Below are positions 5,071-7,005 of a stretch of 52,742 nucleotides of DNA, in pieces. The notes beneath the pieces were generated by a model. It saw only the letters and a list, made by a program, of their open reading frames with translations. It was not told where the DNA came from and searched no databases. Origin of the DNA: Armatimonadota bacterium (GTDB lineage: Bacteria > Sysuimicrobiota > Sysuimicrobiia > Sysuimicrobiales > Kaftiobacteriaceae); contig JAVHLZ010000017.1 of NCBI GenBank assembly GCA_031081675.1, positions 1 through 52,742 of the forward strand. The letters run 5' to 3'. Position numbers and translations under genes: made by a program. How positions within the stretch are numbered: position 1 is the stretch's first letter; the number at the start of each line of letters is the position of its first letter.

Positions 5071-6081
5071 CTACCGGACGGGCGTCACGTCCTTGACCAC
5101 GGTGATCTTGCCGGCCACCAGATCGGCCACCAGCCGCCGCATGGCGACGGCCACCGAGTCGGGGACGTTGCGCAGGGGGAACTGCAGCGCCACGCCGGTG
5201 TCAAACCCCAGCGGGTAGTACCCGCTCCTCTCGCCGCGGGAGATGCGCCGGACGATGGTCCGCAGGGGTCCGGCAAAGTCGTAGAGGACCGACGTGACGT
5301 AGTGCTGGGGGGCGAAGCTCAATTTGTCGGTGTACTTGGCGGTCACCCACACCCGCCGCGGGGCCGCCTTCACCGCCTCGAAAACGCCCAGCATCCCCAG
5401 GTTGAGGGACCCCATGATCACGTCGTGGCCCTCGGCGATCAGGGCGTCGGTGACCTGGCGGGCCTTGGCGGGGTCGTTGAAGTCTCCGACCCAGACCGGC
5501 TTGAACTCCACCTGGCGGCGCTGGTCCCGCAGCGCCTGGCGAATGGCGTGCACTTCGGAGTACGAGAACGGCAGGGTCAGCCCCCCCACGTAGGCGATCT
5601 TCCCGGTCTGGGTGAGCATCGCCGCCAGGGCGCCGATGGGGTAAAAGCCGATGTGGAAGTTGCGGTCGATGACCCACAGGTTGGGCGGCTGGGGCTGCTG
5701 CAGCGGCGCGTCGGCTTCGCCGATGAAGGTGACCGCGGGAAACTCCCGGGCCAGCTTCTCGGTCTGGGAAATGAACTGGCCCCCGTGGGTCCAGATGACG
5801 GAAAATCGCAGGTCGATGTACTCCCGCATGACCCGCTCCACGTCGGGCACCGGGACGCTCTCGGAGTACGCCACCTCGGCCCCGAGCTCGCTGGCCACCG
5901 ACCGCAGGGCCACAAAGCCCAGCGTGTTGTAGTCGGCGTCGGTGACCACTCCCGGAAAGACCGCCGCCACCCGCAGGCGCGGGGCCGGCGCGGCTCCCAG
6001 CTCCCCGGCAGGTAGGACTGCCGCCGTCAGAATCCCTGCCAGAAGAAAAAAGAACGCACTCCGGATAAGACGACCGGACAT
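5071..6081 (-). CDS. BMP-family ABC transporter substrate-binding protein
   Basis: A 336-residue exported protein. I start it at ATG 6081 because GGAGGAGG lies 9 bases upstream and a Sec signal peptide follows (MSGRLIRSAFFFLLAGIL, cleavage near GAAPAP). The longer open frame would translate the palindromic repeat array and is rejected. The mature part has BMP features: RVAAVFPGVVTDADYN at the start, THGGQFISQ, then DRNFHIGFYPIGALAAML. There is no lipobox cysteine, so the protein is probably free or retained by the signal segment. First gene of the transporter operon; its promoter must lie in or beyond the 6173-6386 array. Confidence 0.9.
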   Translation of the reverse strand: MSGRLIRSAFFFLLAGILTAAVLPAGELGAAPAPRLRVAAVFPGVVTDADYNTLGFVALRSVASELGAEVAYSESVPVPDVERVMREYIDLRFSVIWTHGGQFISQTEKLAREFPAVTFIGEADAPLQQPQPPNLWVIDRNFHIGFYPIGALAAMLTQTGKIAYVGGLTLPFSYSEVHAIRQALRDQRRQVEFKPVWVGDFNDPAKARQVTDALIAEGHDVIMGSLNLGMLGVFEAVKAAPRRVWVTAKYTDKLSFAPQHYVTSVLYDFAGPLRTIVRRISRGERSGYYPLGFDTGVALQFPLRNVPDSVAVAMRRLVADLVAGKITVVKDVTPVR

Positions 6082-6172: not shown

Positions 6173-6386
6173 GGGGACAGTCCCCACCTGCCCACCGGGG
6201 ACAGTCCCCACCTGCCCACCGGGGACAGTCCCCACCTGCCGGTCATCGTCCGGCCAGTGGAGGCAATGCGGCGGCAGGCGGCGCCAGGCGCCGGTGACTG
6301 GCCCTGCGGGGACAGTCCCCTGCCGGGCCGGGGGACAGTCCCCTCCTGCTGGCGGGGACAGTCCCCTCCTGCAGGGGACAGTCCCG
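6173..6386. repeat. Array of seven GGGGACAGTCCCC palindromes
   Basis: A 13-base motif, GGGGAC-A-GTCCCC (two 6-base inverted arms around one A), occurs at 6173-6185, 6197-6209, 6221-6233, 6308-6320, 6331-6343, 6354-6366 and 6374-6386 (the last copy ends in G). All are in the same orientation. The first three form an exact 24-base tandem (spacer acctgcccacc). The last four are spaced 23, 23 and 20 bases apart. The array lies between the BMP binding-protein gene (minus) and the split gene at 6410 (plus), and fills most of this 328-base gap. It could be a protein-binding operator array or a REP-like element; the sequence alone does not decide. Confidence 0.9.
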
Positions 6387-6409: not shown

Positions 6410-7005
6410 ATGACTGCTCAACCCCTGGCGCAGGTGGCCTCTTCCGTCGCGGCGGGCCTGCTGGCGCTTGTGGGGGTCGTGTCGGCCTCCGACCCGGCCG
6501 TCACCCACGAGCGCAGTTCCGGGGTGGCCGTGGTGGGCGGAGGGTTCATCGCCGTCACAGCCGTCTGGGTGACGCCGGGCCTTACCGTCCATCCCCACTA
6601 CGCCACCCGGTGGGTATCCGACCCGGCCCGGCGGGCCCGTCACCGCGAGGTGGCGACCGCCCGGACCCTTTTTTGATCGAGGTCGCCAACCAGAGCGCGC
6701 TGCGTCTGGAAGGGTACCTCGCGCTCAATGCGCGCCTGAGGGTGAACGCGCGGGAACACGCGCCAGACCCGGACCCCGCCGTGCGCGCTCGCCTGCCCGA
6801 TCTGTGGCCCGGACCGGTCCTGCAGAGGGTCCCGCCGCACACCACAGTGCTGACCGCGGCGGCGTTCCCGGCCGTCCCGCCCGGCACCGGACCGGTGATC
6901 CTGCTCATCCCGCCCCTGTGGATCTTCCGGGGCTCCCGGCAGATCGGCGAGACGCCGGCATTCGAGCTAGGTTTTGACCCGCGCGGGCTGACCTATCCGC
7001 CGTGA
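6410..7005 (+). pseudogene. Hypothetical membrane-anchored protein split by a frameshift at a T6 run
   Basis: Two frames join into one plausible protein. The first runs from ATG 6410 (MTAQPLAQVASSVAAGLLAL) with two hydrophobic segments, and ends at a TGA right after six T's at 6669-6674. A -1 slip in that run continues as LFLIEVANQSALRLEGYLAL to a TGA at 7003-7005, giving about 197 residues. The second half has no start of its own. I do not recognise the family; it looks like an N-terminally anchored extracytoplasmic protein. Possibilities are a sequencing error, a true pseudogene, or programmed slippage at the poly-T just before the stop. Confidence 0.5.

Follow-up and report, generated by a model that had tools for sequence, protein, structure and literature searches.

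An array of seven near-identical 13-bp palindromes lies in front of the first gene of an ABC transporter operon in the window, as we call the whole stretch of 52,742 nucleotides that was analysed. It raises the question whether the palindromes are the operator of this operon or one cluster of a repeat that is dispersed over the genome. The evidence given below makes it very probable that the repeat goes with a transposase-like gene at another place in the genome and is not a dedicated switch of the transporter.

The array and its neighbouring genes

The array begins with three exact copies of GGGGACAGTCCCC at 6173..6185, 6197..6209 and 6221..6233 (+ strand, as are all seven), each starting 24 bp after the one before, with the linker ACCTGCCCACC between the first two. 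After a spacer of 74 bases (6234..6307) follow three further exact copies in a 23-bp register (6308..6320, 6331..6343 and 6354..6366) and, 20 bp on, a seventh copy (6374..6386), GGGGACAGTCCCG, which differs only in its last base, a G. Between 6173 and 6386 there are thus six exact copies of GGGGACAGTCCCC, versus 0.02 expected from shuffled windows. The seven-copy array, described in an earlier note on this DNA, is real, and so is its exact 24-base tandem of three. The note also gave the spacing of the other four correctly as 20–23 bases and left out the 87-base step in front of them (steps in order: 24, 24, 87, 23, 23 and 20). That all copies have the same orientation holds for the central A only, because the arms are perfectly self-complementary and carry no direction. 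The note took the spacing to be near two helical turns, so that a dimeric regulator could bind one face of the DNA; a step of 23 bp corresponds to 2.2 turns of 10.5 bp, which is non-integral. As a single strand the array folds better than shuffled sequences (z −4.5, DNA parameters).

On one side of the array lies the gene for a BMP/PnrA-like substrate-binding protein (PF02608; 5071..6081, − strand), the first gene of an ABC transporter operon that extends to 1527. Its start is most likely the ATG at 6081, to judge from a GGAGG upstream of it and a predicted hydrophobic signal peptide behind it; this leaves about 92 bases between the gene and the array ahead of it. A 391-amino-acid version of the reading frame, running through three copies of the array, was rejected as an over-extension in favour of this ATG. 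On the other side the next clear gene is a DFP/CoaB C-terminal-like gene (PF04127; 7138..7806, − strand). The array had been placed between the BMP operon and a gene of opposite orientation; the opposite gene is doubtful, since the plus-strand open reading frames 6410-6676 and 6610-7005 have neither a Pfam match nor a coding composition. These two frames (6410-7005), with the array on one side and the DFP/CoaB-like gene on the other, may represent a gene that is decayed or mis-framed. A scan for promoters and terminators found nothing, T-tract terminators included.

A dispersed repeat and the transposase-like genes

The window lies on contig C17 of a genome (G000) of 2.29 Mb in 50 contigs, which contains 42 exact copies of GGGGACWGTCCCC and none of a reversed control pattern. 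The copies form ten multi-copy clusters (on C1, C2, C3 (two), C17, C20, C24, C25, C29 and C39), and two stand singly; the number is 54 when the forms with one mismatch in the clusters that were read, among them GGTGACTGTCCCC and GGGGACAGTCACC, are included. None of the ten clusters lies within a gene called by a simple gene finder based on codon composition. Their neighbours have unrelated functions and various orientations; those of the other clusters include, with names assigned by eye, a gene for a REP-associated tyrosine transposase (RAYT) and MoaE-like, NUDIX, TatD-like and DinB-like genes. Single near-matches on C6, on C33 and at C1:134414 were set aside, being one copy each inside a gene and probably due to chance or coding. 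Scaffold gaps of about 100 N adjoin the repeat clusters at loci L035 (on C39) and L048 (on C20), so that the copy numbers there are lower bounds.

The suspicion that the motif is a dispersed, transposase-linked element is supported by 42 dispersed copies and by one cluster beside a RAYT gene, and also by the cognate repeat/transposase pairs and the filled and empty sites of a sister genus described below. The note would have given up a local operator on finding the motif at hundreds of unrelated sites between genes, beside a Y1 transposase. The genome agrees with this in kind but not in number: there are tens of copies, and one of the ten clusters adjoins the Y1 gene. In a literature search for the exact motif no relevant paper was found.

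A search with PF01797 (Y1_Tnp) revealed four genes in the genome. The one on C39 (L035 1413-2096, − strand; 36.7 bits) has three copies of the 13-mer about 100 bases 5′ of it (L035 2194-2276) and a degenerate fourth in register, and within 1 kb on its 3′ side no copy was found at up to two mismatches. Its protein passes the NCBIfam model NF047646 (REP_Tyr_transpos) narrowly (81.2 versus a cut-off of 80) and has the HUH and Tyr motifs (HLH and YIHANP in the alignment); its relatives keep HxH and YxHxNP, and a profile of these relatives finds the TnpA_REP structure 4ER8 (E = 7e-8). By domain, motifs and specific model alike it is a RAYT/TnpA_REP gene. This single-copy HUH/Y1 protein is most likely the driver of the repeats.

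The three other RAYT-like genes have 13-mers different from that beside the C39 gene. Beside the gene on C6 are four copies of the palindrome GGGGTCTGTCCCC, beside that on C32 is GGTGACTGTCACC, and GGGGTCTGACCCC stands on both sides of the gene on C34. These three palindromes are also dispersed (102 copies of the joint pattern versus 2 of a control), and each of the four genes, as in REPtrons, has a 13-mer of its own. All four are divergent single copies without a duplicate transposon. The distribution of GGTGACWGTCACC follows that of its RAYT group in G000, G002 and G005. Such cognate repeat/RAYT pairs in Sysuimicrobiota are new here. The surroundings of the GGTGAC-type RAYT are syntenic between genera (L037 on C32 of G000 and L151 of G002, 74% over 1047 bp), which is why this gene seems to have been inherited in place rather than moved.

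The spacing of the copies is more regular than the sequence between them. Of 43 intervals between nearest neighbours 23 measure 23 bp and six 24 bp, and the linkers have at most a weak CCTGC in common. Larger intervals also occur, of 77, 87, 88, 99 (in four cases) and 101 bp; they differ by about 11 bp, a pattern seen in small numbers and noticed after the fact. Spacers in the other clusters are 64, 75, 86, 86, 86, 86 and 88 bases long. When those of L039, L042, L044 and L048-L051 were compared with the window's own (6234-6307) for a common body, the lengths were near-fixed and no sequence was shared. With linkers and spacers so little conserved, this genome does not directly show a unit transferred as one block. 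The step pattern may stem from the mode in which copies were added; phasing on double-stranded DNA is the other possibility. A rigid register of 23 bp with linkers that are hardly conserved is new here. The GGGGTCTGTCCCC family (contigs C6, C8, C9 and C10; for example C6:57511-57581), which is paired with the C6 RAYT, prefers 16-bp steps where the window's family prefers 23 bp.

Relatives with and without the repeat

Among 31 genomes compared (the own genome, the family and the order) only G000 (42), G003 (11) and G008 (15) contain at least ten copies of the motif. These three are also the genomes with the closest RAYTs over at least 127 amino acids (100%, 52% and 54% identity, respectively). 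By hand calculation the coincidence of these three genomes among 31 has a chance of 1 in 4495, with thresholds that were set after the data had been seen. In G003 the motif lies upstream of the RAYT gene as the core of the 25-bp palindrome GCAGGAGGGGACTGTCCCCTCCTGC. By sequence identity G002, G003 and G006 are linked to the public MAGs JACPRY01 ('Armatimonadetes' NC_groundwater_691), VBAI01 and VBAP01 (ANGP1); as ANGP1 now bears the name Candidatus Segetimicrobium, in the phylum Sysuimicrobiota, the window probably comes from that family. The pairing is not perfect: G002 has a RAYT fragment of 103 amino acids (52% identical) and yet one copy of the motif, and G006 has two copies without a close RAYT. 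A control palindrome, GGTACCWGGTACC, is absent from G000 and is most frequent in G006 (8) and G008 (10); a RAYT gene of G006 is flanked by it. Since G003 and G011 also hold 4–5 copies, this control is supportive, not clean.

The association of such genes with repeats extends beyond the order. RAYT relatives with usable flanks numbered 71 and came from GTDB genomes of a wide range of phyla. Exact inverted repeats of at least 12 bp across the gene were found in 48 of them, versus 3.15 for mismatched flanks, and a GGGGWC, GGTGYC or GGTACC box within 200 bp upstream in 51, versus 19.6% of control windows. Odd palindromes of at least 13 bp were not clearly enriched near RAYT genes across phyla (0.57 versus 0.43 per kb). 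It is the inverted repeats with GGGGWC-like boxes that are general; the form with a perfect odd palindrome is local.

In the sister genus (g4, with G008 and G006) the motif occurs mostly as dimers 77 bp apart, and about 22 bp beyond most copies stands a box resembling TGACTCA..GGCTA. Here filled and empty sites can be compared. The dimer on C124 of G008 (L119) is absent from G006:C87, where the flanks, 94% and 92% identical, are 4 bases apart; it is also absent from G003, with a less clean join. The dimer on C56 of G008 (L116) is absent from G006:C130, where the flanks directly abut (0 bases). Overall the flanks of these two empty sites are 92–95% identical. At a third site (L123) the element of G008 is missing from G006, which has an element of the GGGGTCAGACCCC family instead, and G003 has neither. 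One dimer with similar flanks is common to G006 and G008 (L114 and L122). Presence and absence at orthologous sites indicate that in the sister genus the repeats come and go between genes. As G003 is also without the element, a gain in G008 is favoured over a loss in G006; site by site the two are indistinguishable. The filled and empty sites are those of the sister-genus version, which differs in layout, and not of the window's own site. L119 also contains, at 1439-1518, about 80 bp of unrelated sequence with dozens of matching places in G003 and G006.

The nature of the repeat and its likely mode of action

How probable is it, then, that a dimeric regulator on the seven palindromes controls the BMP transporter operon? 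Perfect palindromes in steps of 20–24 bp, about 92 bases from the BMP start, speak for a local operator. Nine other clusters, however, adjoin unrelated genes, and one of the clusters lies at a RAYT gene that has paralogs with different palindromes. Moreover, the orthologous BMP operon of G004, a member of the same family (82% protein identity), has a different upstream region without a copy of the motif, which G004 lacks altogether. From the nine clusters at unrelated genes and the motif-free operon we conclude that a dedicated BMP operator, as the note had considered, is highly improbable; a secondary effect on expression is compatible with both findings.

The dispersal itself could be explained by a global regulator or a chromosome-organising protein that binds the double-stranded palindromes, with the spacings (23; 77, 87–88, 99–101) selected for helical phasing. 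The preference for 23 and 24 bp despite variable linkers, and the larger steps that differ by about 11 bp, speak for it. Independent large spacings are few, however, and were noticed afterwards, and a mobile repeat is indicated by the presence and absence of elements at orthologous sites in the sister genus as well as by the pairing of repeats with RAYTs, so that we consider a global binder very unlikely; proteins may nevertheless use the repeats secondarily, as with the REPs of E. coli. That the palindromes act at the RNA level, as terminators or as hairpins that stabilise mRNA, and arose at many genes by independent selection, would agree with the folding of the array. A hairpin needs no perfect identity of a 13-mer across loci with different linkers, though, the scan gave no T-tract terminators, and RAYT pairing and empty sites would be left unexplained; we hold this to be extremely improbable.

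The array is therefore highly likely to represent one cluster of a RAYT-associated, REP/BIME-like repeat that is dispersed and non-autonomous and has the core GGGGACWGTCCCC. As in REP, BIME and REPIN systems with their RAYTs, there are intergenic clusters of palindromes, one of them at a RAYT gene, and several repeat/RAYT pairs (PMC6006769, PMC8266576, PMC3116915); in REPtrons one RAYT goes with each repeat type, with several pairs per genome (PMC6006769). The ten clusters, none in called genes, are dispersed, intergenic and clustered like canonical REPs. The number of 42 exact copies is low in comparison with REPs, for which Nunvar 2010 (PMC2817692) gives usually more than 100, and the tag GT[AG]G stands beside 2 of 52 copies (background 6.6%). 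The palindrome is also shorter than in REP/BIME, and the arrays consist of at least three copies rather than of alternating REP/iREP dimers; G008 does have dimers, mostly with opposite central bases, 77 bp apart. Evenly spaced tandem REPs are known in P. fluorescens.

A second comparison is with TIRtrons, in which TIRYT genes are flanked by repeats, some with GGGGWSAS and some self-complementary, and in which the TIRs reach moderate numbers and occur as single units, dimers or groups (Di Nocera et al., 2013, PMC3733652). Here, too, an HUH/Tyr RAYT-like gene has repeats, and GGGGACAG fits GGGGWSAS. Unlike in TIRtrons, the repeats flank the C39 gene on the 5′ side only (those of the C34 gene lie on both sides), and the repeat has as its core an odd palindrome of 13 bp, which recurs in the 23-bp register. 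With IS200/IS605 the system has in common the Y1_Tnp domain (PF01797) and hairpin ends, but four divergent single-copy genes without a duplicate transposon, and repeats that outnumber the gene, set it apart. For the TnpA_Y1 subclasses 2.1 and 2.3 no REP-like sequences were reported (Quentin et al., 2018). Given the absence of GT[AG]G and the pairing with RAYTs, the system works like REP/RAYT; its nearest counterpart is the TIRtron type, and it is no canonical REP.

By analogy with TnpA_REP of E. coli, the C39 RAYT would bind the single-stranded hairpin GGGGA-CWG-TCCCC and would cut and rejoin the DNA beside it. Repeat units could in this way be copied or moved between genes, and clusters would grow by local addition in the fixed 23-bp register. 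Catalysis by the C39 RAYT, recognition of its cognate repeat and mobilisation of the repeats we infer from what is known of the family and from the genome comparison; any effect of the array on the BMP operon would be secondary.

Going further, one may ask whether Sysuimicrobiota contain a GTAG-less RAYT system in which paralogous RAYTs each have their own CWG-centred 13-bp palindrome, with a 23-bp register regardless of the linker and larger steps by about 11 bp. We regard this as possible but rather unlikely; if true, a nucleoprotein complex would measure DNA distance while inserting or maintaining copies.

Once what looks like an operator array is recognised as a mobile-type repeat, a wrong promoter annotation can be avoided. 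With 13-mers that differ by a few bases, the four repeat/transposase pairs of this small genome form a compact set for the recognition of cognate repeats by RAYTs without a GTAG tag.
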